From: Neospora caninum Liverpool
Taxonomy: Eukaryota; Apicomplexa; Conoidasida; Eucoccidiorida; Sarcocystidae
NCBI RefSeq assembly: GCF_000208865.1
Contig: NC_018392.1
Coordinates: 1,446,793 to 1,510,792 of the forward strand
Direction of reading: 5' to 3'
Length of the DNA: 64,000 bases
Below the pieces are notes generated by a model. It was not told the DNA's origin and searched no databases. It saw nothing but the letters and a program-made list of their open reading frames with translations. Made by a program: the position numbers and the translations under genes. Shown piece by piece: positions 11,449 to 42,768 of this stretch (the first letter of the stretch is position 1; each line of letters begins with the position of its first letter).

Positions 11449-14400
11449 CGTGCGCCGCTCAAGCGGACTACTGATATGTCTGTCTCTCTGAATCCTTGTA
11501 GCCCGAAGAAGCCGGAGTCTGTTTTCTCGTTGTTTCTTCAGCCGATTGGCTTGATGCTGCGGCGAAGGGTTCCCTGCACGTCGGTCGACAGTGTGAAATG
11601 GGAACTGTGTGGGTTTCTACAGGTGGCCAATGCGTGTATGGAAGACGACCTTGACGCACTTCGTGTGTACAGAGGACAACTGAGAGGCACACTCTTCAGG
11701 TTGTGATACTATGCAAGGACAGTTGCGCTGCCTAGGGATCGATGAAGGGGAGAAGAAAGACTCAGTTCGTCTGTTATGCATGCGAATAAGCACGTGCCTT
11801 GCCTTCCCTCCCTTTCGCGTTCGCACGCGGATGCACGCCGCTGCGGCTCCTTTAATTCCGAAAAAGCGACGAACAGGAGACGCTCTTTGTTTTGTCTCTT
11901 CTTTAGGCCAGACGTTTTGTCTTTTGTCGGACGCCGGGGTTATGGCCCGGGGGACACGAGGATGAGATGACTCGGCTAGACCGGTTTAAACAACAATCGC
12001 TTCTGCCCGTCTATTTGGCAGATGCGGATCGCGTTTGCATGCAAACCTTCTCGATAGTGGAGAGGTGGCAGGGGGCTACCTTATCAAACGACCGGGAAAA
12101 AACCAAAGTGATGGAGGACGTACGGGTGGCGCCTTCTGAAAATCGAGACCGATAACGAGCGCCCCTCGAGCACATTTCCCTGGCGCGATGTTCAACCACG
12201 TAACGCAACGATCGGACAGAACAGCTACACAAGAGACCACGGAACCCTTGAAGGCACTTTTTGTGTCGTTTTACACAACCCGTAGAAAACTGTGGATCCC
12301 GTGCAGCGGCTCTGCAGTTGGGCACCGCGAGGGAGACCTTAGGGGTTACTCGAGAGCACGCGCAGACGAGGAGCAGAGCAGCAGCAGTGCGCACTGCTTA
12401 CTCACGGTTGCTTGCGCCTATCTGCCGAAGATTCACGACGCACTCACTGTTTACGTCAAGCGATGTCGATGGGTAAGAGAAGGGGAACTGGGCCGAGCAA
12501 ACTTACAATCGGGCGTCGATCATGGTGCCTTCAGTTGTGCCAATGCCAGGTGGGCGGGCACAGAGACCACCTCGACATTTTCAGTCATGTTGTTCGTCCC
12601 CTTTGTTTCCTTGCGTATATTGACTGTGTTTCCCTTCAGCCATCGTGTGCTCGTGTGGCAAGGGCGGGGTACAACCAAGATTAAGTGTTTCGGGGATGCA
12701 CCCGTACATCGCTAGACATTGTAGCTTATGCCTGGGGTCCGTTGTTGAAGCTTTATGATAATTCGAAGTGACTCGCGTTCTTACGCTCAGTAGACACGGA
12801 TCTATCCTGTTCGAAGTCTTACAAAGACAAGCGACTGTAAACGGCTTCACAGGAAAGTTGACATAACTCGATGTATCAGCTGCTGACGGTCTGGAAGCAC
12901 ACGGTTGATGTGAACAGAAACGGAAAGGGGCAGATCAGAAATCTGTCAGAGCGACGAGAGCAGAGACAGTGTCACAATCGTTGCATGTCCGATACGTGGC
13001 CCTCTTGGGTGTCATCTTGAAGGTGACGCGTGCGGACAAGCAACACGAAACAGCCTTTAACAAGGTCGAGGGGTGCCCAGAACAACCGGAGCACGGGTCT
13101 GAGAATCTGTAGCACAACCACTTTATTTTCCTCGGTTCGGGAAGGAGCTGCTGCTGCTACTGTACGTACTGGTATTGCAGTTGTCTTGCCACAAAAACCA
13201 CCCTCACATTTGTAGGAGGCCCACCCTACTACCACACCGAATTGCAGATGAAGAATCGTACCCAGCGACCACATCACCCCCGAACACAGTGGGGCTCCTG
13301 ACGTCAGGCAAATGAGGACACCGACGCGCACAATACTTACGCTCCTAGCCGACATCCAGACCAGCATGGAACCCGTCACGTGTACACTTTTCAGAACCAC
13401 TGCTCGCGTCTTGAACATCCAGGGTGGTCTTCAAGGGAATGCGTTCTTTTGTCTCTTCCGGATCGGTCCCGCAGGAAGCGAAGACCGACCATTGCCTCCC
13501 AGTCGATAAAAACAGTTCCGTTTTTGTGTGGCGTCCTCAGCCTTCTGCCGGCGCTTGGCTGCCTGCATGAAACCTAAAACAGAGAGAAGTCGAGTGTCCA
13601 CACATCGGCTATCAGACTGCAGACACCGACACAAGACTTCTTTAATAATGGACGTTTCACAGCATGCTTCGTCGTCACGACCGAGTTCCGTGTGCCGGAT
13701 AAGAAGAGACAGAGACAGCTGCTGGAGACTCAACGGTGACCGTTTCTGGAGGTATTTAGTTGTTTCGCGTGCTCGCCGTGACCCGGGTGCTGATGGACAG
13801 TTCGTGGTTCGCTTTTGTTTAGAATGGAACGTCTCCTGCTCTTTTGCCTGCGTGTCTTGCCACCGTTAAAGGTTCTGGCTCCGTCTCAACGATCTAGACT
13901 TGAGAATGCCCGGTAGTGGAAATTCTGCTTTTTACCATGCACGTCCACACTGCCGGTGCGACTTTTTGTTGGAGAGCAGAGACAGCCGCGTCAACCTCCG
14001 TTTGTACACGAACACACTTTCCCGCATCCGGGCATATTTGCTCTCTGAAATAGTGGTACACATCTATGATGGTCACTTTGGTGCAGGCAAGTCGGGATGC
14101 CCTAAATGGGCCGGCTACGAGGGGAAGTCTCAAATACCTGTTAGATAAAAAGCACTGGGCACGACGGACACGCTCAAATGTATGGTTCCCCGCTTCGCGG
14201 TATTCATCGTGCAACAAGCATGATCAATAACGGAAAACGGAAAAAAACGCCCCCGGTGTTTCTCTTTCGTGGAGAAGGCACGCCACCGTTTTCAGGTGGA
14301 GCGACAGAGGCGACAGCACGGCATTTTCGGTGCCTTTGACATACTCCACGTATGTGCCTGAACAGGGGGGGGGGGGAGAGGGTTTGCACTCAAACTCTTC

Positions 14401-14891
14401 TTCGTAATACCCATATATATATATATATATCTAAACAGAGCAACAATGATATATGAGTATACGTGGCCTCCCTTGGTCTTCTTCTTGTCCCTCTTCGACC
14501 TGTAGATTTTGTTCCCTCTTTGTCTTCTTTTCTTCTTCGTTTCCGCTCCTACAGGATGGCATTGGCGCAACCACATCAAAAGTGGTCCAATTCGTGGCTC
14601 GCATCGTCTTCCTTCCGTTTCCTCCTCTCCTGTTGGCGCCGTGTTGAGCGTCGGCATGTATTTCTGATGCAGGCTGCCGCATGCCCCGCGCCCAGTCGGT
14701 CTAGTATTGGTCCGTTTCTCCTCTGTGTTGTTTCCTTTCGCGATGCTTCGTTTAGTCGCCACATGCGTTTTGTGCAAGTTGATGCACTCTGAACGGGTGC
14801 TCTGCAACTAGACCACGACGCCCCTCACCATCTGGAGAGCCCCCGGGGTCGAGTTCAACGCCTCGTCTCCCCCAAGCTGCCAACACTGTTC
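11449..14891. repeat. Block A of the tandem duplication, unit 1
   Basis: Matches 27171-30701. From about 11672 on (27460 in the other copy) the two are nearly identical, with a constant offset of 15788 bases, rising to 15810 after a microsatellite length change. The first ~200 bases are clearly more diverged and the other copy has an extra ~60 bases there. Short frames (12188-12715 plus, 13418-12972 minus) are present in both copies, but sequence this similar gives no evidence of selection. I call no gene. Confidence 0.9.
14412..14430. repeat. (AT)n microsatellite in block A, short allele
   Basis: About nine AT units, preceded at about 14366-14376 by a G run. The matching site in unit 2 (30199-30238) has about twenty units, so this locus has changed length since the duplication. 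Confidence 0.85.
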
Positions 14892-14997
14892 AGATTTAGT
14901 CTCGCCTTGCTCGTACTGTACTCCTGTATACGCCTGACTGCTGGCGTAGACAGGGAGACGAGAGGAAGATACCGAGGCAGAGGAAGAAGCGGGAGGG

Positions 14998-17703
14998 TCA
15001 GTGGGAGTTACGAAACCAGTCAAACACAGCGTTGGATGCACGCTGCAGTGCGGAGTATTCATTGCGGAGAACAGGTAACACGCCCCGTGACGCCTCTGCG
15101 TCGCCAGAGGAAGACCCCGCCGGCCCGTCTGCAGCTAAGGACCGACCTAATTCCCCTGCCTCATGGCGTGGACCTTGGCTGTCTCTGCCTTCCCCTGTGG
15201 TCCTCCCATCCCGTTCTGCTTGTGCGCGTCGCGGCCCATCGGTGTTTCTAAGAATGACAGAGAGAAGGGGACAGATTAAGCCCCCTGTTTGTCCCTCCCT
15301 CCCCCCCCCCGTACAGACGATTTCCCACACGCGACTGGAGCGCCGGCACGTTTGCAGATGGTCGGCCCAGATGCAGGTTGCTGATATCCAAGCCCGGTGA
15401 GTCGTCGAAGTCGCGGTCACGCAACAGCGAGGGACTCGGTGGACAACGATAGCCAGTGTCGCATTCACCGAGCTTGACGTGCGGCCACGCAGGAAGTGCA
15501 GATACGAATCCACCGACTCCCGCAGTCTTCTCGCCTTCCGCTCGGGCAGCAGAAAACAGCGGGTCCCCTCGGATGGTGGCAGGTGTCACATAACTCGGAG
15601 ACAAGTGCTCGACAACGTGGAAACCGGCTCGACAGATGAACACGCCGCCCACAGAGATGATCGCGACAGACACCAAACTCGACAGGCTCGGCTGGAGGAG
15701 AACCATAGAGAGAATGGAGGAAAACAGGTAGCACGCCAAGCCAATGCTGAACAGCCTAAACACATGCAGGAAACAAAAAACACGCAACACAGAAAGACGT
15801 CGTGGAAGGGATGGATGGCGAAGTAGTGCTCGAGAACCAAGCCGCCAGCGCCAGACAGAGCTCCACATCTCGAAACAGCACATCAAACTTCGTCTCTAGA
15901 ATGCAACATGCAGGTGGAAACGAATGAAAAAAACGGTACCGATTCAAGTTGACGAGAAGGTAAACGACGTATGCTCTTGTGCAGTGAAGCTATCATGTTC
16001 TCGGGTGTGTCTTTTCTGAAACCCATGCCGTCCCGCTGCGCCGCGCTGTTCTCCCGGAGCATCGCTCGCTCCCCAGTCACCGTTTCTGGCGCGAGATATG
16101 GCCCCATGGAGAACTGTGGTATGCAGAATACCCACGCTGCACATTGCGGCAGCTATCGCGGGGGGTTACGAAGAGTACGGCAGACGAGTCGTATATGCCG
16201 CGTCCGTTCACACGGTCCAACCGTGTTACCAGTGACGGAAAAACACGCGGGATTTCCGAGCTGCATGCAGCTTACGGATACGCGCCATGTATTTTGTGTA
16301 GTGCATGCACGTGAGAGATGGCGGCCTCCCGAGTTCCTTACCTGAATGCCGCTTGAACTGAAGAATCCATAATATCCACAGCCCTTTGCAGAGACTCATC
16401 TTTAGGGCCACGCAGAGCCAGACCAGGCCCCCACATGGTACAGAGTGTGCAAATCAAAAGAACCAGAAGCATGAAGCCCACGGCACTAGATGTGAAGAGG
16501 ACGTAGATGAGCTTGATCCAGGATTCTCCTTTTTGAAGACCTGTACAAGTACCCGCGAAGGCAAACAAGAAGGCCACAATGCTTCATGGTAACCATAGCA
16601 GCAACCGATATACTGCTACCTGGGTTTAGGAGGTGAATGTGTATCCACACAGATATGAGGAAAAGAATGGAGACGGGTAGCACAGTGCTCCAGTCGCCGA
16701 GAAAAACATAGGACCCGCCCAGGAAGACCTCGGTGCCATGCAGAAGCGACAGATGGAACAGGCAACGCTACACAAGAGACAATGAACCAGCTAAAAAAAA
16801 ACTGTAGGGATCGAACGGCTCCTGCACGCGCTCCACGAAACATCCAGGAACGTGGCCAGGAGGGAGACATTTCTCACACGAATCACCTATGTCAAAAAAT
16901 GATGTTTCTCTGAGAAGCCACAGGAGATGGGGAAGGAGGGAAAAGGCAACAAAGGCTACGTGACGAGGGAAAATCGATCTATACAAGAATGGAGAGAGCA
17001 GTTTCTGAGACCTGCGGCGCATGCACTGCCCTTGGCACATTGCCTACTCCTGATATCACAGTACAAAGCAGACCGAGATGCACGAAGCGCACAGGACATT
17101 TTCAGCAAGAATGCGTCCCCACTCCACAAGTTCAAAAGATACGAGGGGAACTGATCGCTTGCCACCGAAGAGCACACAGGGAAAACAAGAACCAACACCA
17201 GGACAACACAAGGAGAGAGGCAAAGGAAATTATCTCTGTGCCTTCTTACTGTCATCCTCTCCACACATATCGATTTATTTGTATCCACATGTATATATAA
17301 ATATATATGTATATATATATATATATATATGAAGATGTACGCACATGTATGCGCCCATGCGTGTTTTTCGTGTCTCCGGCACGTTCTCTCTCCAGTGTCC
17401 TATCTGTCGTTCGGGCGCGTGGCATGCCATGGCCCGCAAGACTTGAGACACGACGACGGCACTGGTGTCATGACCCACCAATTCATCCGGTGGAGAACCC
17501 CCTTCTGTTTCAGTAGTGATCCCTGTGGTCTTGTTGTTACCTGTGGATTGCAAGAAGGTCGAAGCGGCAAAGCCCGAGAGAAGAGAAGCGAGGGATGTGG
17601 TTTTATTCATGACCATAATTAAGTATTCGACTTCCATATACTGGACTTTCATGCTCCCCATATGAAAGCCAGTCAACACGGAGGCCTTGTTGGCCTGCAA
17701 CAT
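14998..17703 (-). CDS. Four-helix membrane protein, Orai-like (possible Ca2+-channel family)
   Basis: Four exons read leftwards: 17703-17541, 16540-16342, 15755-15315 and 15247-14998. Phases 1, 2 and 2 all join cleanly, giving 1053 nt (350 residues). The ATG at 17703 opens the first exon. Predicted helices: residues about 35-54 (TSLASLLSGFAASTFLQ), 63-91, 122-141 and 145-163. Helix 2 is followed by a conserved-looking loop, MWGPGLALRGPKDESLQRAV. The C-terminal 185 residues are hydrophilic. What points to Orai: four closely spaced helices, and the LLSGFA core in the first helix, which resembles TM1 of Orai store-operated Ca2+ channels (SALLSGFA). Residues 19-27 are Tyr/Glu-rich. That link rests on motif and topology by eye and is an inference; another small four-TM family is possible. 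The gene lies within the duplicated array but exists only in unit 1. Confidence 0.65.
17292..17330. repeat. (TA)n microsatellite in intron 1 of the Orai-like gene
   Basis: Interrupted TA repeat inside the 1.0-kb first intron (17540-16541) of the four-helix membrane-protein gene. Confidence 0.85.
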
Positions 17704-20480
17704 CTTGCGGCGAGAGAATAACAAGACTCCAATGTTCACTGCTGGATCTGAAGGGGTTTCCGAAAGCAGTTGCGTCTTTTCAAGAAGAGAGGAAGAAGAT
17801 TAGTGCAACGGGAGGGTAGACGAAATGGAGCAGAGATCGGCAACGAAAAAGGAACACAGAGAAACCGAGGGGAGTGGAGAGGAGTGAAAGAAGAGGGAGA
17901 GCGCGGGCGAGGAAGCGCGTCGAGACGCAAAACATACGACCGAAGAGGAAACAAACGTAAATGGCGCGAACGAGAAGAGAATGATAAGGAAAAGAGGGGA
18001 GGAAGTAAATAGAGGTGAAAGAAAAAGACGCAGTACAAGCGGTTGCAGACGAGAGACTATAGGGAAGGAAGGCACCATTGACATGTCGCTAGGAGGACTG
18101 GGGCTGTGAGTAGTCACGGACCTCCCAGAAATGCTTCGAAAGAAAGAAAAGCTACCAGGCTGATGGAGAACCCAACGAAAAAAACACTTGTGTGCGGACA
18201 GAATGACGGGTAGCGTGTGCTGGAACACGAAAAACGCGAAAACATGAAAGGTCGATGACGCGAAGAAAAACGACGGAGAGAGGCAGACAGGAAGCAAGGC
18301 AAACTGCAACCTTGCTGGAGATCTGTCTGCGTTTTTCGCTATTGTTTCCAACCTCTTTCACTTCGTTCTGTTCCTCTGTGTTCTCGTCACCTGCGTCGGC
18401 CCTGCACTGCCGAACGTCCTCGCTTGCACGGGACCAGAGAAATGAGGACCAATGACGTGGGAAGAAGCAGAATACAGGAAAGTCGAGGAAAAGAAAACAT
18501 TCATCGTTCCATCCGAAGAAAATGTTTCCCCCCCATGAGTTCTCGATGGTCTGACCGGCGATGAGAGAAAAAGATGACGAGACTCTTGGATCAGCGAGAT
18601 ACCAGTAGCACGGAAACGTTTGCCACACCGTCGTCGGGCAATGAAGGTTTGGCCTTAATGGAGGGTGAACAGTAAAGGATCTCCGCACAGTTAAAAGAGA
18701 TAGACCACCAGGGTTTGGACGAAAATTTCCCAAGCTGAAGAATTCGACAAGACTCAAAGGGGAAATGTCAGCCTCGTTCTCAAAGGAGAGGTGGCGTCTT
18801 TCTGGTGCCCAGACCCGCGAGGAGGAACGTCAACAATGACGACGAAGGAGAATAACGTGCCTGTAATTCTTTTTTCCTTTCTCCCCTTCGACGGATATGC
18901 GGTATGCCGCCGTAAAAAAAGACGCTGTCACCTTACCCGTTGTATCCGATTTTTAAAAAGAACAGCTCTAGGAACCACGCGGGTTTATTGTTGAGCAGCG
19001 GCAACTAGCCATCAAGAGCACCCCCCACGTCGCGCCCCCGCACCCCCCCCCCCCAACGAAGACACTTTGGGTAACCTTACGACAGGCTTTGAGTCACCCG
19101 TCTCAGTGCTACGCAGACATGGGTCTCTTTTCTAAGGCTCATCTGTAAAGATCACTTGTCCAATGTGCTGGCCAGAAAATGATCGGATATATTTCGATAA
19201 TCGAATGACATCGTGAAAAGAAAGGGTACTTCTTATGTGCTGCTGCACTCCTTGGCGTACACCAGCCCCTCTATTCCGGTGGCTGTAATCCTTACATTCG
19301 TGCGATATACGGCTCCAGAAAGGAAAGCTGCCACACCTTTCTGAGCAGGCAGCCAACGAGAATTAACGCGGTCTGCCGCCTACTCAACCACAAATGACAG
19401 GGGCATGGTCGAAACCCTGAAGGGACCGGAAGGGCTTACATGTTTGGGAGGGCGAAAACAGATGAGGCAGCCCATCCTGTGCGACCAGCCGAATGCTCAA
19501 AACCCCCGAGCGCAACCTAATGCCAGCGGATGACGCGTTGACCTCGCGAAGCCTCGAACGCGCGCTGTGTTCTCGTAGCCGAGGACTGAAGTCGTTTGTG
19601 GACCATGCGCCCTTGCTAGTTCACACGGTAGCTTGTAGAGACCCCTCATGCACCATGGAACCTCGCTGTTGGGACGCGGTCGCTCCTTGCACAATTTGAC
19701 GGAGGCACTGCCACGCGTAGGGACAACAGCGCCATTGCAAGGTTTGGTAAATGGGCCCGCAACTACCGCGAAAGGCCCGCTTGAAGGACATTGAGTTTCA
19801 GCGAAGATTGCCCTGCTCTGGAAAGGATCTCCATAACTGAAAGAGCAAATCAGGAAACGAAAGTGACCAAATTAGGTAGAGTCCAGAAACGGAAACACGG
19901 ATCCTTTAAGGCTTTTTCCATAAGAAGAGCCGTCTGCCCTCTAGTTTCGTCGCGTTCGTTGGGGTTTCTGTACCACCGTCAGGCGTGCACCCGGTTTATT
20001 GACCCTCTCATGTTTGTTCTGCACTAACACAACTTGCGAGTGAATACCGCTCCTGCTCATGCCAGAGATACATGCAACAGAGAGGTGGATTCGCACCACA
20101 ACTCCGTGTTTGTTACGTGTTAGAATGGAACGACGTGCATACCCCTCTGCGTAGAGTCAGGACAGTTTCCTGTCAAGTTTCTTGTTGTTCGAGGCGTTCC
20201 GGCAAAGTGGAAGACTGTTCATAACAACTCTCAACCAGATCACGTTCTGGTGCCTTCCGCACTTTCGTGGCCCACTGCGGCAGTTGCTGTCGCTGTTTGC
20301 GCGTTCGATCCACTGCGAGCTACACCTGTCGTGGCCTCCGGTATTAGGTTACCCGTCACTTCTCTTGGACTCCTGCTCTGGATGTCTGCTGTGCCTTCAT
20401 TGTCGGCCCTGGAACCTCGTTCTCTTTCTCTGCCGTTCAACGCGGATGGAACAACCAGTTGACTACCGTGCTGCTTCGAC

Positions 20481-21474
20481 ATGCGTGCGTGTGCTGTCCT
20501 GCCTTCTTCTGTACTCCTAGGTAAGTTGCTCCTTTTTGCTTCTTTTTCATTTGTTGCTGAACCTTGCAGAGATACAGTGGAGTCCACAGTAGTTCAGGAG
20601 GAGCTCCGTTTCCGGATTCCCACACGAGTCCTGCGCCGGTCTGTGACAGCATCATCGTACCGTATCAGGCCTCCCGTGAATATGCCTACCCCTGCCGGCA
20701 CACACAGAGCTCGTCCCCTCTTCAATAGCTCAGGAAACTATACAACCAGTGGTTCTTGTGTCATTGCAGTGCGTCCTGTCACAGATGGTTACCTCTAAAG
20801 GTGACAGTATTTGTGTGGAACCGACACATTTGTCAAACGGATTCTTTTTGCGCGGTGCAGGCAGTGTAGGAAGGTGGTAGTAGAACGTAGGCACGCGTAA
20901 CAGGAACAGACATTTACTCAGATAAAAGGAAACTAGTGGCTCAGCACGCTAAGAAATCATTTGCTTCCGATTCAGGCGCCGCGAGACACCAGTCAAGGTT
21001 GTCTATCAGTCTCGGCTGACTCAATGGAGTCGTGCACCTGGTCTGGACAGAGACTGCAAAAAGCCACAGGTTCCACGACTCGAACGACTGAATGTTGGAA
21101 CCAGAATGGACCAAACTTCGTTTGGCATAGGTAGGCGTTTAGGAGCTCATGAGCGAGCATTTTTGTCTGTACAGGTAGCGAGTTTCACACGGGGAGACAA
21201 TCTCAACAGCATTTGCGCGCAGAGTCACGACCGCGTCTCCACTCCTTTGAGGCTGACGGGCTCTTGTATTGCCCACCCCACACAGGCCACTGTTTACTCG
21301 GTACCCGTTTACCGCGATATCTACCCATCCAGCAAGTACCTGCTCAGCGCGGATTACAGAAGTGAATTCCTATTCGCGACAGTCAGGAATTCTTCTTTCG
21401 TGTACGTGGCAACAGCCAAACACAAACACTGGCGTTATCGCTCGTGTGGTCATTTATTCGAACGGACGTTGTAG
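20481..21474 (+). CDS. Small predicted secreted protein, unit 1 copy
   Basis: Proposed two-exon gene: 20481-20770 and 21175-21474, phase 0 at GCA|GTGCGT and CTGTACAG|GTA, about 196 residues. The N-terminus has a classical signal peptide: a short polar start, then VLLGKLLLFASFSFVAEP before a likely cleavage site near residue 27. The rest is Ser/Thr/Arg-rich with several Cys (C29, C93 and others) and no recognised domain. If the intron is not spliced, the first frame simply ends at 20798 (105 residues) with the same signal peptide. A GT-AG pair at 20522-20569 inside the signal peptide is too short to be a likely intron. The unit 2 copy carries a stop at codon 4. No homologue is recognised; the presence of a gene rests on the signal peptide and phase agreement. 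Confidence 0.45.
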
Positions 21475-22036
21475 CAGGTTGTCACCGGGGCCGACCTAGC
21501 TGTTCCCAGCCATGACGCAGTAACGCCGGGATAAGGCTGAGTCTCATACCAGCCGTTTTCCGTCTCTAACTCCACCACTCGGTGTGACGGCGGTTCTCGA
21601 TGGGCGCCGTCAAGAAAAATCAGACGGCGCTAACACCGTGGGGCAGCGATATATTGGTTCCTCTTCTGAAGATGTTCCTTTTTGAGCTGTGACTGTCGTG
21701 ACAGAATGACGAGCCCATCGTCTTTTCTCGATACAGGTTGTCTGAGTACGCTGCCTTTGCCATGACAGTGTGCTGTCTTTGTATAGTGGGCGCTGACCGA
21801 CAGCCGTTTGCGTTCGAAGCCACGGTCCTGTAGACTCGAAAGATAGCGGCTCTTGTTGCGATCGCTGTCTAATAGAAACGAGAATAAAACTAACAAACGT
21901 CCAACTAGGAGACGCGAGAGTTGTCCCAAGGGAAGATGCGTTTTAATTTGCCGTTTCGTTGCACTTGATTTAGAGTCATCCGGACCAGGGGACTTCCTCG
22001 TAATCCTCCCGCGCGCCCTGCCGCTCTCACAAAATC

Positions 22037-23850
22037 ATGGAACGCTTTGTTCTATTTTTATCAGTGGCATTTATCTATGCCATGGGCGTCAGGGCACCTA
22101 TGGCATCAGGTGTGTCGGCACACACGACAACGGTACATCTTATCGTCTTTTCACTCCAATATGTCGTTTCTACTTTTTTACAGGGCCTCGACGCGACGGA
22201 AGCCGGTCCGAGTCCCGTACGAGGTCCACCAGGGGCTCGCCGGGGTGTTACCCCGCCGAGTTCAGTGTCAGAGGTTTCGAATACCGAGGGGGAACGGGTG
22301 CGGAGGCTTGCCGAGGCCAGCCCCAGTGCAGAAGAGATCACGGATCGAATGATTCAGATTGAGAAGCAACTCAAGGACCTTGTTGCGTTTCGATACGCGG
22401 AACGATGTAATTTTCGACAATTCGCACGGATGTGGTTTTCAGAAGACGCGTTCTGTACACAACACTTGAAGCGGAAGGACAGAGTAAGCGGCACGACTGG
22501 CGAAACGCTTCGAAGACAAGTCGGCGGCGGCCTGTAGGTAGCGTGAAATACATGGTTTAGAGAGGTCAAGTTGGGGGTGCGCCAAGAGAAGACTAAACTA
22601 GTTGTTTGCTTCTCCAGCAACGACACAGCGAAGGCCATAGGTCATGCTTCCTGGAAACTCTCATTCGGCTACTTCGTCGAGGGTTGCGCGCACAACCATT
22701 CCACATGATACTTATGGGATTAATTCGCTTCCGAGATCATAATGGTACATTGCTATTGTTTCAGCGCCGTTGTCATAGCGCGTGTGGTATCCCATCGTGT
22801 CAGGTCCCGTTGGCTCGTGAGGTGCTGAAACAACGCTACAAACAACAACGTGAAGAGAAGGAACGTGATTTGAATGCCTGGGCGGCATGTCTAGATGCCC
22901 TCAATTTCCGAATTAAGTTGCTGGACAATGAGAGAAAGGATCTGGAAAACAAGCTTACAGAAGAGCAGTACGTTCGGTTCCTAGTCAAGTTGGCTGGTCG
23001 CGGTGAAGGTGACTCCGGTGGAGAAAGCACTCGTGCATTATCGGGCGAGGCAGATGAATCAGCAAGCACGAGCCAATCTTCTGATGTGGCAGGATCTACG
23101 CCAGGTGGAAGTGATTCCCTGGAGGCATTGCAGCGGGAAATACCTCTAGCTAGACAGGAAGCAGCACAGGCCTTAAAAAAGCGGCGGTACTGGCGCAACT
23201 TCCTGCGGACTCATGAAGCGCAACGTCCACAAGGTCCCACGGCGGAAATGCTTGAAAACGAACGCGTTGATGCCGCCTGTGACTTTGAAAAATGGCAGAC
23301 CGAACTGGCAGAACTCAAAGCAAGATCCAGCGGGGCGGAGAAGGTATACGCCGCCCTCCGCGCGAGAGTGAGGTCACTTCACCAACGGAGACGGGCTATA
23401 GTTAAGAAACAGAAAACTGGATCGCAATCTGGTACGAAAGGAACCGGTACCGGGACGCCTCTGAAAGGCTCCTGGAATGCTCGTAATCGCTTCGCTCGTT
23501 TTGACATTGTCGTCGAGGAAAGTGATGCGCAGACGCCGTGGCGTACACGTCCTTCCTGCGCCTTTTGGAGCCAGCGAACGAGTGGTCAGTCTGCTGCAGC
23601 GGGCTTGCAGCCAGGTCCGGCCAAGCACCATGTGCTTCTTTCTGCGCGCCCATACATGCAACAACGATACCAGAAACCACGCCGAAAACCACGAAAACCT
23701 GCCGTTTCTAGTGAAGCTGAACGCGGCGGGGGAGGCGGTGCGGAACCTGGGCCGAGCACGAGTACGTCTGGTCTTAATGCAGCCTCAGCGTTACAGGAGA
23801 ACAGATCTGCGGCGCGCTTGATGAGACTGACAAGTCACTGGCGACAATAG
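22037..23850 (+). CDS. KRUF-like secreted coiled-coil protein, copy 1
   Basis: Two exons: 22037-22483 and 22765-23850, phase 0 (AGA|GTAAGC, TTTCAG|CGC), 510 residues. Residues 1-24 form a signal peptide (MERFVLFLSVAFIYAMGV). The frame stays open through a Pro/Gly-rich stretch into charged, Lys/Arg/Glu-rich helices (for example LLDNERKDLENKLTEEQY and LAELKARSSGAEKVYAALRA), probably coiled coil. Low-complexity Gly/Ser linkers (GESTRALSGEADESASTSQS) and a Ser/Gly/Pro-rich tail follow. A GT-AG pair (22110-22183) near the signal peptide would break the frame and is probably not used. Lys/Arg richness, signal peptide and tandem copies match what I know of the KRUF family of Toxoplasma, which has no known function and is expanded in tandem. 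The family assignment is by resemblance only. The copy at 33727 has the same exon structure but only about half its residues are identical in exon 2. Confidence 0.7.
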
Positions 23851-24350
23851 CGACTCGACGGCACAACCCCGTGTTATGAACTGCCTGGGCTGATTTTTCT
23901 CCTCCTGGCAACTGGTCACGCCGCAGAGAATGCCAGTTCTGTAGGACAAAGTTGCCTTCATTACCTGAGAGACGCAGCTGTGGAAGACGTATGTGGCTTC
24001 CGTGTTCGGGTCAGATAGCTGAGTGTTAAGTGGAATCGCCAATCAGAAAACAGTCGTGTTCCGCGTTGCAGCTCGGCGCCCGGGGGACCGCGGTGCCCAC
24101 GGGCGATGTCTCTATTTGCCACTGGAATGAGCGTCAGTAGCGCTCGCGGGAAACGCCGGTGACTCGCGTACGAATGAATGCCCGTTACTCGTGAGTGTCG
24201 CTAGTTTTCTGCGTGTGAACAAAACCTTAACGGGGGCTCCGTGGAATAGCACTCTAGAATATGGGCCGGTACAGAGACGCATCCAACTCACGCGTGGTTT
24301 GTAATCATAGCGCGCCGTATTGGCAACATGTCCGTGTTCCTTTGCTTCAG

Positions 24351-26731
24351 GCGCATCGACAACCCCTTTCCCAGATTCACCGGGCGAAGGAACATCTGGT
24401 GTTAGCATGACGGCGCCGACTGCCGGACCTGGCACGAGACATTGCGCGAAGCAGTCTCGTTCAGGTCCTTCCGACCAAGGTCAGCAGTCTTAGTATGGGG
24501 GCGAGGTCCGGGCTTACACAGCGGTAACCCGTCAGGAATAGGATCGAGTTCGGGAATAGTGGTGCTAACGGTCGAATCGAGACCGTCGCGATGACACTGT
24601 ACGTCTGATTCCTGTCGTCGGTCAACGTAGAATTCTGACAGACAGGATTTGAGGCGAGGACCAAGAGTTTTGCGTGGAGTTGCATATTCCGTGTGGAATG
24701 TGCAGCCGTGTTTTGTATCGGTCTTGCATCAATCTGTACCTGACGCTCCGACGTTTCTGCATGACATGCTGAAGGCCACTCTACGTGTCCGGTTCAAGAG
24801 GATGTTGGCGGAGCTGCTGCGAAGCAGCCAGCCTCTGCTGCTTCTACCGCTTCTGCTGCTTCTGCCGCTTCTGCTGCTTCTGCCGCGGGTCAGTTTGCTG
24901 GTGCAGCATTGCAGTGCCACCAGCCAGCCACCTGCCAAGAGAACCCCTCAACTGACGGAAGTAGCTGAGGTTGTTGAATTGATTCGAGCCGGCGAGAGAT
25001 GGAAGTGTATCTCTCACATCAATGTTGGGGCACTGTCTACTCGGTGATTGGGGTACCCGCCTATAGTCTTGTACACACCGGGGAATACGTGTCTGGCTGC
25101 AAAGCGTTTACCCTTTGAGAACTAGGGGATTAGGAGTGCTAGCGCTGTCGGTGGCCAGGAAATGCCACAAATGACTCCAAGCGCAGCGTTACTTCAGGGT
25201 CTTGTGTCTTGCGTTTGTGACTCCTTTCGGTGGATGTACTTGCTCAGCCGCTTCACCTTCGTCTGCAGAGAGTCTCACGGCAGCGTTGCCAGGGGGGTCT
25301 CCCGGTGAAGCTGCAGGGGCTCCCGCCGCGAAGAGCCGACCGCTGCCTGTAACGACTGAGGGACCTGAATCGGCCGTTCCTGCGGCTGACATTGACAAGG
25401 CAGGAACTCCAGAAGAGGCGACTACATTCCCACCCTTGATGCGAGCACATCCTTTCTTGATTCCAGGCGCCCCTGCAGACGCGAGCCCTACCACACTACC
25501 GGTGACGCCGCAGCACTCATCGAGTACTTCTCTCCCACGCAGCGATCCAACAGGCGGCGCGACTTCGTCTGGACCCGGTGACAACTTTTCATATTCTGTT
25601 TCCCCCAGTTCGCGCCTGCGGATGAAGCGTCCGACACCGCTGCCCTCTCGTGGAGGCCCGTCTGCTGCCAAGCGAGCCGGCATGCCACAACCGCCTCATT
25701 CTCAGTCCACTGCACCAGAGCAGCCGGAAAGGGCATCTGTTTCCCATGAAGGTGCTGTTTCGCCATATCATATAGGAGCATTCCAGTCCATGGTGGTTAG
25801 TAACTGGGTTCAGCGTTGAATGATAGCTAAGCCGGACTGTACACAGCAGTACGAACGTACGGGAAAGAGAAAGGGTTTCCCGAATCGTATGGACCTATTA
25901 GAGTGCTGCTAGATTCCGGTATGCTTCGTTTTGCTTGTGCATGGGACTAGAGACGGAGGGTACAGTGTCTGTTGCATTAAAAGGTTGCTCCGGTGCGTGG
26001 TGCTTGCGGGAGATATGATTGAGGGATTAGAAGGGGTCACGAGGGCACAAGTAGTGAAGGTGCTTCGAGCAGCGAACGAAAGAAACTCACCACTAATGCT
26101 ACACGATGCCGATGTACAGGCACACCGGCGGTCCGTTTGTGCTACAGGTGAAGGTGGCTTAGTACCATTGGCCCAAAAGAGTGATACTGAGACGACGAAG
26201 TCTAGTGGAGGTTCTTCCCCCAGTCTCACTGCTCGGCAGACGGGACTGCATAAAACGAAGAAACCAAGACGACGACAGAAACCAGGACAAGAACGTGGAA
26301 TTCGCATGTCGTCTGGTGGCCGAGCAACCACCACCCGTCAAGGATCTTCGAGGCCTCCGAGCTCCAGCAGCCCTCCGAGTTCCAGCACTTCTCCTTCATC
26401 AGGAAGGCATCCTCAGACACGACATGTGAGAAGACCTAGAAGGAGCAAGGAAGAAGGCTCTTCCCCTCACCACCACGCTGGTGCTTGGCGCCTGACGTCG
26501 TCACCGTCCAGCCTAACGCCTGCCGGTATCGTTCCTACCGCCTTCCAGACCACGTCCAGTCACGTAGGGCCTTTAAGCGGCGGGAGTGGCGTGCTGTCGC
26601 TGGTACCATCGTTCATAGGACATCCCCCAGCAAGTTCTCCGTTTCCGTCTCAGCTGTCCTCCTACCTGCAGGGAAGGGCAATACCCTTCAAACCACAGCG
26701 TTCCACAACGTCGTGGGAGAAGGACTCGTAG
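24351..26731 (+). CDS. Ala/Ser/Pro-rich protein with basic C-terminal half, unit 1 (5' exon not found)
   Basis: Tentative four-exon model: 24351-24479, 24775-24960, 25269-25795 and 25913-26731. Phases 1, 1 and 0 agree, giving about 553 residues; at least one 5' exon is missing. Exon 1 is Pro/Ser/Thr-rich. Exon 2 holds an Ala/Ser repeat (ASAASTASAASAASAASAAG) encoded by reiterated GCT/TCT codons. Exon 3 is Pro/Ser/Ala-rich with short basic patches (RLRMKRP, AAKRAG). Exon 4 contains a basic cluster (KTKKPRRRQKPGQER) and long Ser/Pro runs. No folded domain is recognised. The disordered composition is typical of parasite secreted or dense-granule-like proteins, but no signal peptide is proven. 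A hydrophobic stretch at about 23875-23920 is a candidate for it. The weak acceptor before 24775 makes that junction the least certain. Exons 3 and 4 could also be separate genes. Confidence 0.4.
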
Positions 26732-27170
26732 AGGGGCTGTAAGGCGCTGGCACGCACAACAGAGAATAAAAATTCGAAAAGGGCGTAATAGGCTGCGTGG
26801 GTCAACCTTGTGCGCCCCCGTGGCATCAATCACTGGGGGCTCAAGAATGTCTTGCTGACGCACTGTTTGGTGTTTTCCCGTCTCATAGGGCACCGATTAT
26901 TCATAGATTTCGTTTTCTAGAACAGATCGTCACTTTGATGGGGTAGCGTCCTCGCTCTTTACGGTCAATCTGACGGTGGGTCCTGCTGTATGTTTTACCG
27001 GTGGTTTTTTTCGTGGGTCGTAAGGTGTATGGCAGGAGGCAGAATACGGAGTTAGTCAGGGTAGCGGCCCGTATGAAACCCCGTACACGCCCGTGTTGAG
27101 AATCATTTTTTCATTGTAATAGTCATTCGAGTCAAGATGGCAAGGACGCTGCTCAAGGGAGTTGCGGGAA

Positions 27171-30100
27171 CCGTGCGCCACTCGGACGGACTCCTGATAT
27201 GTCCCTCTCTCTGAATCCTTTTTGCCGCCTGAAGAAGCCGGAGTCTGTTTTCTGGTTGTTTCTTGAGCCGATTAGCTTGACGCTGTGGCGAAGGGTTCCC
27301 TGCATGTCGGTCGACAGTGTGAAATGGGAACTGTGGGAGTTTCTACCTGGGGCCAATGTGTGTAAGGAAGACGTCTTCAAAGCACAACATGTGCAAGGCA
27401 GACGCCTGACACACGCAGTGTCTGTAGGTACGACGCCGTAGACGCACAGCGTGTGAACAGAGGACAACTGAGAGGCACACTCTTCAGGTTGTGATACTAT
27501 GCAAGGACAGTTGCGCTGCCTAGGGATCGATGAAGGGGAGAAGAAAGACTCAGTTCGTCTGTTATGCATGCGAATAAGCACGTGCCTTGCCTTCCCTCCC
27601 TTTCGCGTTCGCACGCGGATGCACGCCGCTGCGGCTCCTTTAATTCCGAAAAAGCGACGAACAGGAGACGCTCTTTGTTTTGTCTCTTCTTTAGGCCAGA
27701 CGTTTTGTCTTTTGTCGGACGCCGGGGTTATGGCCCGGGGGACACGAGGATGAGATGACTCGGCTAGACCGGTTTAAACAACAATCGCTTCTGCCCGTCT
27801 ATTTGGCAGATGCGGATCGCGTTTGCATGCAAACCTTCTCGATAGTGGAGAGGTGGCAGGGGGCTACCTTATCAAACGACCGGGAAAAAACCAAAGTGAT
27901 GGAGGACGTACGGGTGGCGCCTTCTGAAAATCGAGACCGATAACGAGCGCCCCTCGAGCACATTTCCCTGGCGCGATGTTCAACCACGTAACGCAACGAT
28001 CGGACAGAACAGCTACACAAGAGACCACGGAACCCTTGAAGGCACTTTTTGTGTCGTTTTACACAACCCGTAGAAAACTGTGGATCCCGTGCAGCGGCTC
28101 TGCAGTTGGGCACCGCGAGGGAGACCTTAGGGGTTACTCGAGAGCACGCGCAGACGAGGAGCAGAGCAGCAGCAGTGCGCACTGCTTACTCACGGTTGCT
28201 TGCGCCTATCTGCCGAAGATTCACGACGCACTCACTGTTTACGTCAAGCGATGTCGATGGGTAAGAGAAGGGGAACTGGGCCGAGCAAACTTACAATCGG
28301 GCGTCGATCATGGTGCCTTCAGTTGTGCCAATGCCAGGTGGGCGGGCACAGAGACCACCTCGACATTTTCAGTCATGTTGTTCGTCCCCTTTGTTTCCTT
28401 GCGTATATTGACTGTGTTTCCCTTCAGCCATCGTGTGCTCGTGTGGCAAGGGCGGGGTACAACCAAGATTAAGTGTTTCGGGGATGCACCCGTACATCGC
28501 TAGACATTGTAGCTTACGCCTGGGGTCCGTAGTTGAAGCTTTATGATAATTCGAAGTGACTCGCGTTCTTACGCTCAGTAGACACGGATCTATCCTGTTC
28601 GAAGTCTTACAAAGACAAGCGACTGTAAACGGCTTCACAGGAAAGTTGACATAACTCGATGTATCAGCTGCTGACGGTCTGGAAGCACACGGTTGATGTG
28701 AACAGAAACGGAAAGGGGCAGATCAGAAACCTGTTAGAGCGACGAGAGCAAAGACAGTGTCACAATCGTTGCATGTCCGATACGTGGCCCTCTTGGGTGT
28801 CATCTTGAAGGTGACGCGTGCGGACAAGCAACACGAAACAGCCTTTAACAAGGTCGAGGGGTGCCCAGAACAACCGGAGCACGGGTCTGAGAATCTGTAG
28901 CACAACCACTTTATTTTCCTCGGTTCGGGAAGGAGCTGCTGCTGCTACTGTACGTACTGGTATTGCAGTTGTCTTGCCACAAAAACCACCCTCACATTTG
29001 TAGGAGGCCCACCCTACTACCACACCGAATTGCAGATGAAGAATCGTACCCAGCGACCACATCACCCCCGAACACAGTGGGGCTCCTGACGTCAGGCAAA
29101 TGAGGACACCGACGCGCACAATACTTACGCTCCTAGCCGACATCCAGACCAGCATGGAACCCGTCACGTGTACACTTTTCAGAACCACTGCTCGCGTCTT
29201 GAACATCCAGGGTGGTCTTCAAGGGAATGCGTTCTTTTGTCTCTTCCGGATCGGTCCCGCAGGAAGCGAAGACCGACCATTGCCTCCCAGTCGATAAAAA
29301 CAGTTCCGTTTTTGTGTGGCGTCCTCAGCCTTCTGCCGGCGCTTGGCTGCCTGCATGAAACCTAAAACAGAGAGAAGTCGAGTGTCCACACATCGGCTAT
29401 CAGACTGCAGACACCGACACAAGACTTCTTTAATAATGGACGTTTCACAGCATGCTTCGTCGTCACGCCCGAGTTCCGTGTGCCGGATAAGAAGAGACAG
29501 GGACAGCTGCTGGAGACTCAACGGTGACCGTTTCTGGAGGTATTTAGTTGTTTCGCGTGCTCGCCGTGACCCGGGTGCTGATGGACAGTTCGTGGTTCGC
29601 TTTTGTTTAGAATGGAACGTCTCCTGCTCTTTTGCCTGCGTGTCTTGCCACCGTTAAAGGTTCTGGCTCCGTCTCAACGATCTAGACTTGAGAATGCCCG
29701 GTAGTGGAAATTCTGCTTTTTACCATGCACGTCCACACTGCCGGTGCGACTTTTTGTTGGAGAGCAGAGACAGCCGCGTCAACCTCCGTTTGTACACGAA
29801 CACACTTTCCCGCATCCGGGCATATTTGCTCTCTGAAATAGTGGTACACATCTATGATGGTCACTTTGGTGCAGGCAAGTCGGGATGCCCTAAATGGGCC
29901 GGCTACGAGGGGAAGTCTCAAATACCTGTTAGATAAAAAGCACTGGGCACGACGGACACGCTCAAATGTATGGTTCCCCGCTTCGCGGTATTCACCGTGC
30001 AACAAGCATGATCAATAACGGAAAACGGAAAAAAACGCCCCCGGTGTTTCTCTTTCGTGGAGAAGGCACGCCACCGTTTTCAGGTGGAGCGACAGAGGCG

Positions 30101-30196
30101 ACAGCACGGCATTTTCGGTGCCTTTGACATACTCCACGTATGTGCCTGAACAGGGGGGGGGGAGAGGGTTTGCACTCAAACTCTTCTTCGTAATAC

Positions 30197-30241
<45 letters not shown>

Positions 30242-30701
30242 TAAACAGAGCAACAATGATATATGAGTATACGTGGCCTCCCTTGGTCTTCTTCTTGTCC
30301 CTCTTCGACCTGTAGATTTTGTTCCCTCTTTGTCTTCTTTTCTTCTTCGTTTCCGCTCCTACAGGATGGCATTGGCGCAACCACATCAAGAGTGGTCCAA
30401 TTCGTGGCTCGCATCGTCTTCCTTCCGTTTCCTCCTCTCCTGTTGGCGCCGTGTTGAGCGTCGGCATGTATTTCTGATGCAGGCTGCCGCATGCCCCGCG
30501 CCCAGTCGGTCTAGTATTGGTCCGTTTCTCCTCTGTGTTGTTTCCTTTCGCGATGCTTCGTTTAGTCGCCACATGCGTTTTGTGCAAGTTGATGCACTCT
30601 GAACGGGTGCTCTGCAACTAGACCACGACGCCCCTCACCATCTGGAGAGCCCCCGGGGTCGAGTTCAACGCCTCGTCTCCCCCAAGCTGCCAACACTGTT
30701 C
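27171..30701. repeat. Block A' of the tandem duplication, unit 2
   Basis: Second copy of 11449-14891, starting directly where block B ends, so the two units are head to tail. The first ~290 bases are diverged and contain ~60 extra bases compared with unit 1. The rest differs by scattered single bases and microsatellite length. No gene is called. Confidence 0.9.
30199..30238. repeat. (AT)n microsatellite in block A', long allele
   Basis: About twenty AT units against about nine at the matching site 14412-14430. Confidence 0.9.
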
Positions 30702-30750
30702 GGTTTTTCTCTCTTCCGTTTTGTACTGTTGGTCTGCATATGCCTGGTCG
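30702..30750. other. 49-bp sequence replacing the 4.2-kb segment U
   Basis: Lies between the end of A' and the start of B'. It is not identical to the start of U, but shows a weak resemblance to 14892-14940 (shared GTACTGT and T.CTG.ATACGCCTG-like spacing), as if it were a diverged relic of the same left edge rather than random filler. Confidence 0.55.
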
Positions 30751-32170
30751 GACACTTTGGGTAACCTTACGACAGGCTTTGAGTCACCCGTCTCAGTGCT
30801 ACGCAGACATGGGTCTCTTTTCTAAGGCTCATCTATAAAGATCACTTGTCCAATGTGCTGGCCAGAAAATGATCGGATATATTTCGATAATCGAATGACA
30901 TCGTGAAAAGAAAGGGTACTTCTTATGTGCTGCTGCACTCCTTGACGTACACCAGCCCCTCTATTCCGGTGGCTGTAATCCTTACATTCGTGCGATATAC
31001 GGCTCCAGAAAGGAAAGCTGCCACACCTTTCTGAGCCGGCAGCCAACGAGAATTAACGCGGTCTGCCGCCTACTCAACCACAAATGACAGGGGCATGGTC
31101 GAAACCCTGAAGGGACCGGAAGGGCTTACATGTTTGGGAGGGCGAAAACAGATGAGGCAGCCCACCCTATGCGACCAGCCGAATGCTCAAAACCCCCGAG
31201 CGCAACCTAATGCCAGCGGATGACGCGTTGACCTCGCGAAGCCTCGAACGCGCGCTGTGTTCTCGTAGCCGAGGACTGAAGTCGTTTGTGGACCATGCGC
31301 CCTTGCTAGTTCACACGGTAGCTTGTAGAGACCCCTCATGCACCATGGAACCTCGCTGTTGGGACGCGGTCGCTCCGTGCACAATTTGACGGAGGCGCTG
31401 CCACGCGTAGGGACAACAGCGCCATTGCAAGGTTTGGTAAATGGGCCCGCAACTACCGCGAAAGGCCCGCTTGAAGGACATTGAGTTTCAGCGAAGATTG
31501 CCCTGCTCTGGAAAGGATCTCCATAACTGAAAGAGCAAATCAGGAAACGAAAGTGACCAAATTAGGTAGAGTCCAGAAACGGAAACACGGATCCTTTAAG
31601 GCTTTTTCCATAAGAAGAGCCGTCTGCCCGCTAGTTTCGTCGCGTTCGTTGGGGTTTCTGTACCACCGTCAGGCGTGCACCCGGTTTATTGACCCTCTCA
31701 TGTTTGTTCTGCACTAACACAACTTGCGAGTGAATACCGCTCCTGCTCACGCCAGAGATACATGCAACAGAGAGGTGGATTCGCACCACAACTCCGTGTT
31801 TGTTACGTGTTAGAATGAAACGACGTGCATACCCCTCTGCGTAGAGTCAGGACAGTTTCCTGTCAAGTTTCTTGTTGTTCGAGGCGTTCCGGCAAAGTGG
31901 AAGACTGTTCATAACAACTCTCAACCAGATCACGTTCTGGTGCCTTCCGCACTTTCGTGGCCCACTGCGGCAGTTGCTGTCGCTGTTTGCGCGTTCGATC
32001 CACTGCGAGCTACACCTGTCGTGGCCTCCGGTATTAGGTTACCCGTCACTTCTCTTGGACTCCTGCTCTGGATGTCTGCTGTGCCTTCATTGTCGGCCCT
32101 GGAACCTCGTTCTCTTTCTCTGCCGTTCAACGCGGATGGAACAACCAGTTGACTACCGTGCTGCTTCGAA

Positions 32171-33164
32171 ATGCGTGCGTGAGCTGTCCTGCCTTCTTCT
32201 GTACTTCTAGGTAAGTTGCTCCTTTTTGCTTCTTTTTCATTTGTTGCTGAACCTTGCAGAGATACAGTGGAGTCCACAGTAGTTCAGGAGGAGCTCCGTT
32301 TCCGGATTCCCACACGAGTCCTGCGCCGGTCTGTGACAGCATCATCGTACCGTATCAGGCCTCCCGTGAATATGCCTACCCCTGCCGGCACACACAGAGC
32401 TCGTCCCCTCTTCAATAGCTCAGGAAACTATACAACCAGTGGTTCTTGTGTCACTGCAGTGCGTCCTGTCACAGATGGTTACCTCTAAAGGTGACAGTAT
32501 TTGTGTGGAACCGACACATTTGTCAAACGGATTCTTTTTGCGCGGTGCAGGCAGTGTAGGAAGGTGGTAGTAGAACGTAGGCACGCGTAACAGGAACAGA
32601 CATTTACTCAGATAAAAGGAAACTAGTGGCTCAGCACGCTAAGAAATCATTTGCTTCCGATTCAGGCGCCGCGAGACACCAGTCAAGGTTGTCTATCAGT
32701 CTCGGCTGACTCAATGGAGTCGTGCACCTGGTCTGGACAGAGACTGCAAAAAGCCACAGGTTCCACGACTCGAACGACTGAATGTTGGAACCAGAATGGA
32801 CCAAACTTCGTTTGGCATAGGTAGGCGTTTAGGCGCTCATGAGCGAGCATTTTTGTCTGTACAGGTAGCGAGTTTCACACGGGGAGACAATCTCAACAGC
32901 ATTTGCGCGCAGAGTCACGACCGCGTCTCCACTCCTTTGAGGCTGACGGGCTCTTGTATTGCCCACCCCACACAGGCCACTGTTTACTCGGTACCCGTTT
33001 ACCGCGATATCTACCCATCCAGCAAGTACCTGCTCAGCGCGGATTACAGAAGTGAATTCCTATTCGCGACAGTCAGGAATTCTTCTTTCGTGTACGTGGC
33101 AACAGCCAAACACAAACACTGGCGTTATCGCTCGTGTGGTCATTTATTCGAACGGACGTTGTAG
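32171..33164 (+). pseudogene. Small secreted protein, unit 2 copy, stop at codon 4
   Basis: Matches the gene at 20481-21474 (exons would be 32171-32460 and 32865-33164). The fourth codon is TGA where unit 1 has TGT. The remaining frame is open but has no in-frame ATG until after the signal-peptide region, so a secreted product could not be made from this start. The rest of the copy has very few changes, which suggests the stop arose recently. If the gene model in unit 1 is wrong, this is only a silent change in non-coding DNA. Confidence 0.4.
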
Positions 33165-33726
33165 CAGGTTGTCACCGGGGCCGACCTAGCTGTTCCCAGC
33201 CATGACGCAGTAACGCCGGGATAAGGCTGAGTCTCATACCAGCCCTTTTCCGTCTCTAACTCCACCACTCGGTGTGACGGCGGTTCTCGATGGGCGCCGT
33301 CAAGAAAAATCACACGGCGCCAACACCGTGGGGCAGCGATATATTGGTTCCTCTTCTGAAGATGTTCCTTTTTGAGCTGTGACTGTCGTGACAGAATGAC
33401 GAGCCCATCGTCTTTTCTCGATACAGGTTGTCTGAGTACGCTGCCTTTGCCATGACAGTGTGCTGTCTTTGTATAGTGGGCGCTGACCGACAGCCGTTTG
33501 CGTTCGAAGCCACGGTCCTGTAGACTCGAAAGATAGCGGCTCTTGTTGCGATCGCTGTCTAATAGAAACGAGAATAAAACTAACAAACGTCCAACTAGGA
33601 GACGCGAGAGTTGTCCCAAGGGAAGATGCGTATCAATTTGCCGTTTCGTTGCACTTGATTTAGAGTCATCCGGACCAGGGGACTTCCTCGTAATCCTCCC
33701 GCGCGCCCTGCCGCTCTCACAAAATC

Positions 33727-35394
33727 ATGGAACGCTTTGTTCTATTTTTATCAGTGGCATTTATCTATGCCATGGGCGTCAGGGCACCTATGGCATCAGG
33801 TGTGTCGGCACACACGACAACGGTACATCTTATCGTCTTTTCACTCCAATATGTCGTTTCTACTTTTTTACAGGGCCTCGACGCGACGGAAGCCGGTCCG
33901 AGTCCCGTACGAGGTCCACCAGGGGCTCGCCGGGGTGTTACCCCGCCGAGTTCAGTGTCAGAGGTTCCGAATACCGAAGGGGAACGGGTGCGGAGGCTTG
34001 CCGAAGCCAGCCCCTCTGCAGAAGCGATTATGCAGAGATTAAACGGCATTGAGAATCAACTCAAGGACCTTGTTGCGTTTCGGTTCTCAGAACGAGCTAT
34101 TTTTCGAAATTGCGCACGGATGTGGGTTTCGCTGGAAGGCTTTCGCACCGAATACACGAAACACTGCAAGGGAGTAAGTGGTAGGACTGACGAAGCGATT
34201 CGTAGGCAGGGTAGCAGCGGCCTGCATGTGGCGTGAAGGCCATGGCTTACGGTCTTCAAGTCGGGGGTGCGGCAAGCGAAGTTTACACAAGTTGTTTTGA
34301 TTCTCCAGCATAGCGAGACAGCGAACGCCGTAAGTAGTGTTCCTGGAAAATCTCATTCAGCTACTTCGTCCAAGAATTGATCACAAGACCGTTCCACGTG
34401 AGATTTAGTGGATTAATTCACTTTATACGTGATAATGATACATCAGCACCGATGGCATAGCGCGTTTGGTATCCCATGCTCTCAGAAACGGTCATTCAGT
34501 GATGCGGAGCTGCAGCAACGCTACGAAAAACACCATGAACAGAAGGAACATGATTTGAATACCTGGGTGGCATGTCTAGACGCCCTCAATTCCAAAATTG
34601 AGTTGCTGGACAAAGAGAGAAAGGATTTGAGAGGAAAACTTACAGAAAAGCAGTACCGTCTGTTTTTAAGCAAATATACTGGACGCGGTGAAGGTTACAC
34701 CCCGGGAGAAAGCACTCGTGCCACATCGGGCGAGGCAGGGGAAAGTGCGAGCACGAGCCAATCATCTGCTGCGGCTGGACCTACGCCAGGTGGCAGTGGT
34801 TCCCTGAAGGCATTGCAGCGGAAAATGGCTCGACTAAGGCGAGAAGTAGCACTGGCTTTGAAACGGGACTCTTGTCTTCGGAAGATGGTGCGGTCTCATG
34901 AAGAGAAACGCTCACAAGATTCCTCGGGGGAAATGTCTGAACGGGAACGAGTTCGTGCTGCCCGTGTCTCGGAAAAATGGGAGGCTCGACTGGCACAACT
35001 CAAAGCTAAATCCGCCGAGGCGACCGCGATATACGCCTCCCTCCGTGAAAGAATGAGATCACTTAAGCAACAGAAAGCGGAAATGCTTAAGGATCCTCAC
35101 ACCGCTAAGCGACCGCACCGAAGACGGACAGGTGACGGCGAGACTCTGAGAGGCTCTGAGAATGCTCGAAATCGCTTCCAGCGATATGGTATTATCGTCG
35201 AGGACAATGATGCGCAGAAATCGTGGCGTACACGTCCTTCCTGCGCCAATTTGAGCCAACGCACGAGTGGTAAGTCTGCTGCAGGGGGCTTGCTGCCTGG
35301 TCCGACCACGCGCCATGTGCAACTTACTGGGAGACCATACGCAGCCCATCCACCTCAGAAGCCATACCGAAAACAACGTTGCGTTTCTCTCTGA
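33727..35394 (+). CDS. KRUF-like secreted coiled-coil protein, copy 2 (shortened C-terminus)
   Basis: Exons 33727-34173 and 34447-35394, phase 0 (GGA|GTAAGT, CATCAG|CAC), 464 residues. The first ~80 residues, including the signal peptide, are identical to copy 1. The rest is only about half identical, though the layout is kept: basic coiled-coil helices, a Ser/Gly/Thr linker (GESTRATSGEAGESASTSQS) and an RTRPSCA.LSQRTSG.SAA motif near the end. An extra base relative to copy 1 near 35390 shifts the frame, so the protein ends in CVSL. The Gly/Ser/Pro tail and final ~45 residues of copy 1 are lost, although their DNA is still present downstream up to about 35530. Function is unknown. Confidence 0.68.
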
Positions 35395-42618: not shown

Positions 42619-42768
42619 GGACCCTTGCTTCTTCCTAGGCCTACTTCCCCTTCCTACGCGAACAACCTGTTCACAGGTTTGTCCCCTTTCGGTGTCGCTA
42701 TTCCTCCTGGTCAGCTTCCAAGGAAACATGAATACCGGTAGGGGGATAGTGAAATGCAACATTGGTAC
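42619..42768 (+). repeat. Left arm of fold-back inverted repeat
   Basis: About 150 bases that match the reverse complement of 42946-43096 at roughly 88% identity, with shared stretches such as CAACCTGTTCACAGG and TTCTTCCTAGGCCTACTT. It begins about 180 bases after the stop codon of the six-helix membrane protein. Confidence 0.85.

Follow-up and report, generated by a model that had tools for sequence, protein, structure and literature searches.

A strongly diverged gene body inside a near-identical tandem duplication of Neospora caninum

A tandem duplication in Neospora caninum, with units of 11-16 kb, carries an island of strong divergence (376/1467 sites) amid flanks that are approximately 99.4-99.6% identical, and in both units the island lies inside a single gene. 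The divergence is uniform across exons, intron and silent sites, the outer edges of the units are old, and no third copy was present in the genome and protein data searched. It is probable, in our judgment, that an old tandem duplication has been homogenised by gene conversion and that one gene body escaped this process.

Layout of the duplication and extent of the island

The window, i.e. the whole stretch of 64,000 nucleotides that was analysed, is C7:1446793-1510792 of the Neospora caninum Liverpool assembly (57.5 Mb, 14 contigs). Unit 1 of the duplication consists of A + X + B and unit 2 of A' + B' (Table 1). When segment X (4.1 kb) was compared with the rest of the window, only matches of 44-88 bases were obtained. 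Its left junction falls inside a diverged stretch, and its right junction is sharp and follows a C-rich run. The window also contains an inverted repeat of about 149 bases with 91% identity (42620-42767 and 42947-43095).

Table 1. Coordinates of the duplicated units, the island and the two gene copies in the window
Feature	Position	Strand	Remarks
Block A, unit 1	11449-14936	.	counterpart of A'; near-identical interior, diverged ends
Segment X, unit 1, spacer between A and B	14937-19060	.	no equivalent between A' and B'
Block B, unit 1	19061-27171	+	self-BLAST and alignment
Block A', unit 2	27172-30746	.	abuts B directly
Block B', unit 2	30751-38652	+	self-BLAST and alignment; 100-base N gap at 36573-36672
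Island in B	22314-23797	+	two-state HMM; 376/1467 sites differ; shoulders from 22277 and to 23922
Island in B'	34004-35477	+	alignment
Unit 1 right outer edge	27091-27171	.	10/81 differ from 38572-38652; HMM: 27094-27171 in diverged state
Neighbouring open frames in B, homogenised	25202-25819, 25931-26731	+	0/618 and 3/801 differ from B'
Copy B, first 149 codons	22037-22483	+	signal-peptide-like start; codons 1-80 same in B'
Copy B, intron (GT..AG)	22484-22764	+	diverged, 64/269 sites
Copy B, last exon, 361 codons + stop (23848-23850)	22765-23850	+	contained in NCLIV_017220
Copy B', first 149 codons	33727-34173	+	
Copy B', intron	34174-34446	+	
Copy B', last exon, 315 codons + stop	34447-35394	+	ends before the equivalent in B

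Blocks B and B' were aligned globally over their whole length and scored per block of 100 columns. The blocks starting at 22261 to 23654 showed 59-83% identity and the block at 23754 showed 95%, and the remaining ones were 97-100% identical, with exceptions around the N gap and in the two final blocks of the unit (93/100 and 15/18). The left border of the island is steep: there are no differences in 21945-22276 and 3/48 in 22277-22324, and differences are dense from 22325 onwards. On the right the shoulder is longer: differences are dense up to 23711, followed by 8/86 in 23712-23797 and 4/127 in 23798-23924. A three-state HMM broke the island into many short pieces, and no clear second boundary was found with it. 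The initial annotation of this DNA, which described two diverged cassettes amid near-identical flanks, was thus confirmed, and the breakpoints that it placed at 22277 and 23790 are good, with short shoulders at both borders.

Inside the island, codon positions 1, 2 and 3 differed at 26.6, 26.6 and 27.4%, fourfold sites at 26/105 (25%) and the intron at 64/269 (24%), and the rate in the exon core (303/1101) was not different from that in the intron (p 0.25). Since exon, intron and silent-site divergence are similar, the intron and the exons appear to be about equally old. The protein changes approximately as fast as the silent sites, with a dS of 0.37 (bootstrap 0.28-0.46), a dN of 0.32 (0.27-0.38) and a dN/dS of 0.87 (0.67-1.17); the latter value is no demonstration of positive selection and could also result from relaxed constraint. 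Blocks of 100 sites inside the island were more variable than expected by chance (variance/mean 3.14, with 0/2000 shuffles as high). The intron had been described as diverged, with an identity of roughly 70%; it is indeed diverged, and the measured identity was 76%. The conclusion drawn from it, namely that protein-level selection alone is excluded as the direct cause, is sound, and selection against conversion would also leave the intron diverged.

The interior of the duplicated unit differed at 40/9258 sites (approximately 0.4%), of which 9/3199 were in A (11691-14891) and 31 in B (20/3216, 4/953 and 7/1890). At the left outer edge (11449-11683 against 27172-27471), 29/235 sites (12%) differed and there were 65 gap columns, including a 62-base indel. 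With the right outer edge added, the pooled edges differed at 39/316 sites versus the 40/9258 of the interior (Fisher p 3e-37, a descriptive value, as the edge limits were set after the alignment was seen). The island with its shoulders, 24878-25199 (N gap), 11684-11690 and 14892-14936 were left out of these counts. The last of these stretches, the end of A beside X, differed at 17/45 sites, and its addition to the edges gives 56/361. A run of 1060 identical bases starts at 11669, and a minus-strand open frame overlaps the left edge in each unit. At the inner end of B beside X (19061-19160), 1/100 sites differed and there was no decay of identity.

The gene in the two copies and the search for relatives

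The protein of copy B is NCLIV_017220, a hypothetical protein. As judged from the sequence, the leader of both copies opens with a hydrophobic, signal-peptide-like stretch. The initial annotation regarded the first ~80 residues as common to both copies and the proteins as about half identical; the results showed that 240/240 bases of codons 1-80 are identical and that the last exons share 56% protein identity. The B' product is shorter than that of B (149 + 315 versus 149 + 361 codons) because its frame hits a stop at 35392-35394, and the stretch of B' resembling the last 50 residues of B sits in another frame. In the tail there is a 5-base indel close to where the island ends, and the gene end of B' (35378-35533) combines a 5-base difference with the earlier stop. 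The public model of NCLIV_017220 starts at a later ATG, does not include the signal-peptide-like stretch and uses an earlier acceptor for the intron. There may be a first intron of 72 bases behind the signal peptide (22112-22183); whether it is spliced out or read through, the frame stays open.

The splice sites are preserved in both copies. The exon core contains a single indel, of 3 bases, and the intron five indel events of 1, 2, 1, 1 and 11 bases, none of which is a multiple of 3. When as many substitutions as separate the copies (295) were placed randomly on the 362 codons of copy B, the frame stayed open in 2/20000 trials. On this sequence evidence, namely retained splice sites and a frame held open more than chance would allow, the idea that this is not a real gene was rejected.

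Pfam searches gave no family at cut-off for five proteins. Lysine and arginine together make up 17.4% and 20.3% of the two last exons, which is an unspecific feature. A weak model of the last exon, based on a two-row alignment (mean pLDDT 50.7), was mostly helical in its better parts and showed helices only, at 18-63, 116-152 and 160-219. We take the product to be a putatively secreted, K/R-rich and probably helical protein kept in two versions, both of which are presumably produced and used. NCLIV_017220 was not found in the literature searched; NCLIV_016 and NCLIV_017 names are absent from the main text of PMC6147731, and NCLIV_017 names from that of PMC10469931.

Further copies were looked for with DNA and protein queries. 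In the 57.5-Mb assembly the island DNA matched B and B' only, and the upstream flank DNA was found at two places. The last-exon protein gave three genome matches at E <= 1, all within B and B'. Exon 2 gave four at E <= 10, namely the two copies and matches with E 0.309 and E 0.489 that were taken as noise, and the frames around one of these noise-level matches showed no evident relative. The intron query recovered nothing but itself, not even the B' intron already known, and this search has no bearing on further copies. Among approximately 8000 and 1143 candidates scored from about 5.8 billion proteins, NCLIV_017220 and the B' frame were the only relatives, in a word-based search that misses relatives having no 5-residue words in common. 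The assembly and the protein candidates scored contained no third relative, so that no source for a swapped cassette turned up. The check proposed at the outset for cassette exchange was a closer match elsewhere in the array; only the two copies rose above noise.

The initial annotation also called the gene KRUF-like, a label for which neither the published gene list nor the searches with the present gene gave support. The passages of PMC3310773 that list KRUF members of N. caninum name NCLIV_002020, NCLIV_002030 and NCLIV_043740, and NCLIV_017220 is missing there. A tblastn search with four queries against 200 kb of C1, where the site of NCLIV_002020/30 was guessed from the numbering, returned 22 rows with a best E of 0.54, and nothing marked the array in this region as KRUF. 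This tandem array, at about 1.790-1.828 Mb of C1, has repeat pairs of mostly 75-99% identity and several minus-strand frames with a common signal-peptide-like leader; we presume it to be rhoptry-protein-like.

Origin of the island

The explanation that we hold to be probable is that the tandem duplication is old, that gene conversion has kept its units alike, and that one gene body escaped. Gene conversion or repeated unequal exchange would keep copying one unit over the other, which would bring the difference down to about 0.4%. The gene body would have drifted or been selected apart, now to about 25% at every kind of site including the intron, and conversion tracts would then fail to pass it and stop at borders inside the gene. 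As a result, the secretory leader and the upstream region would be homogenised in both genes and the bodies would be different. Conversion would be the agent, with divergence as the barrier, and the island might be kept because selection favours two distinct secreted proteins.

Two mechanisms had been offered at the outset, i.e. replacement of the gene by another family member, and conversion of everything except this gene. What speaks for the latter is the age of the outer edges of the units, which lie outside the gene and are old as well; for the former, no donor was found in the genome and protein data searched. Had the duplication been recent, its ends would be as young as the rest; the excess of differences at the edges fits an old, homogenised one, whose age is taken from the edges only. 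Conversion that weakens near the ends of homology would give such diverged edges, and the shoulders at the island borders are expected if tracts end at differing points. The homogenised frames next to the island, the uniform divergence within it and the open frames also support the escape of the gene body. It had further been suggested that a new body was joined to an old leader. The leader is indeed shared, and the situation is better put as a leader that is still homogenised and a body that is not.

The inner end of B, where there is no decay, counts against this reading. The flank differences were not clustered beyond chance when the surroundings of the N gap were omitted (variance/mean 0.91, p 0.62; and 1.21, p 0.28), so that separate tracts are invisible and the flanks, taken alone, are compatible with one young event. 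Clustering was also tried as proof of conversion tracts and rejected: the right-flank value of 2.65 (p 0.004) came from misalignment at the N gap, and removal of 24878-25199 gave the value of 1.21 above. Moreover, divergence in the island intron is about double that of the unit edges (64/269 versus 39/316, p 0.0003), and the island may therefore predate the duplication, unless the edges have been partly converted. This gap between intron and edges leaves room for partly converted edges, captured old alleles or a lost donor.

A donor is required if the duplication is recent and the gene body of one unit was afterwards replaced from a diverged paralogue by ectopic conversion. Such an event would account for the fairly sharp borders inside the gene, the even spread of the flank differences and an island more diverged than the edges, but it fits poorly with the already old unit edges, with shoulders in place of clean steps, and with the lack of a third family member in the 57.5-Mb assembly or among the protein matches scored. 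The donor may have been lost, or may lie in unplaced contigs or in unannotated DNA elsewhere. On balance, we regard this explanation as unlikely.

The escape of a gene body from conversion can be taken one step further. The island could keep two ancient, functionally different versions of one secreted protein that are older than the duplication, with conversion renewing the leader and the upstream region and selection separating the bodies, as a kind of fixed 'heterozygosity' in a haploid parasite. We advance this as a speculation that is quite improbable as it stands.

It is very unlikely that the two bodies go back to ancient alleles of one gene which persisted in the population and which a later unequal exchange between haplotypes put on one chromosome, with the flanks alike through free allelic recombination outside the selected site. 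The divergence peak with shoulders, the island more diverged than the edges and the single locus found in the genome would fit such a history, but the old outer edges and segment X would need a further explanation. An assembly effect, in which both genes are real and their near-identical flanks were over-merged or put in the wrong unit, has an equally small probability: B' contains a 100-base N gap, and the previous NcLiv reference, which the analysed assembly appears to be, has incorrectly assembled chromosomes according to passages of PMC10469931, but over-merging would not create a 25% diverged island or diverged edges, and differences are not absent from the interior compared, with 31 in B and 9 in A.

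Comparison with known systems

Divergence islands in homogenised duplicates can flag genes that are possibly selected to differ even if dN/dS does not exceed 1, and they offer a simple criterion for picking test-worthy genes in coccidian tandem repeats. The present island points to an uncharacterised gene pair, putatively secreted, that had no relative outside N. caninum among the protein candidates scored. The age of a duplication taken from whole-block identity can be badly underestimated.

Among coccidian genes, the pair resembles KRUF in being K/R-rich, of unknown function and present in more than one copy; it differs in that the N. caninum members listed above do not include NCLIV_017220, and no sequence link was found. 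The SRS19 locus of N. caninum and T. gondii is likewise a coccidian cluster for which gene conversion was suggested by the authors, as described in passages of PMC3310773. The genes there cluster by species and are thus homogenised, whereas in the NCLIV_017220 pair it is the gene body that has not been homogenised. According to passages of PMC4729833 on the secretory pathogenesis determinants of tissue-cyst coccidia, tandem copies of genes diversify there as well, and the present pair is similar in being tandem copies of a putatively secreted gene. The comparison with the ROP, MIC, GRA, SRS and TgFAM families is one of description, and no Pfam family was at cut-off for the pair.

The closest comparison is provided by Drosophila duplicates, as far as these are presented in passages of PMC2588116. 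Osada and Innan found elevated divergence at the block edges, and in CG18281/CG17637 a coding peak was considered to be held against conversion, following Teshima and Innan. The N. caninum pair shares with CG18281/CG17637 the low surrounding divergence and the local coding peak, and its diverged block edges have a parallel in those described by Osada and Innan. Teshima and Innan look for duplicates that are old but homogenised, and the interior (40/9258) and edges (39/316) of our units are of this kind, with the age taken from the edges; they also look for a local peak in the coding region, found here as 376/1467 in 22314-23797. Unlike CG18281/CG17637, the N. caninum pair has one island of about 1.5 kb, with 25% divergence, that spans intron and exons, and the test of type-C and type-N sites would call for a sister species that shares the peak in orthologous grouping, with type-C sites around it. 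We regard the NCLIV_017220 pair as a clear example of an already known type of pattern.
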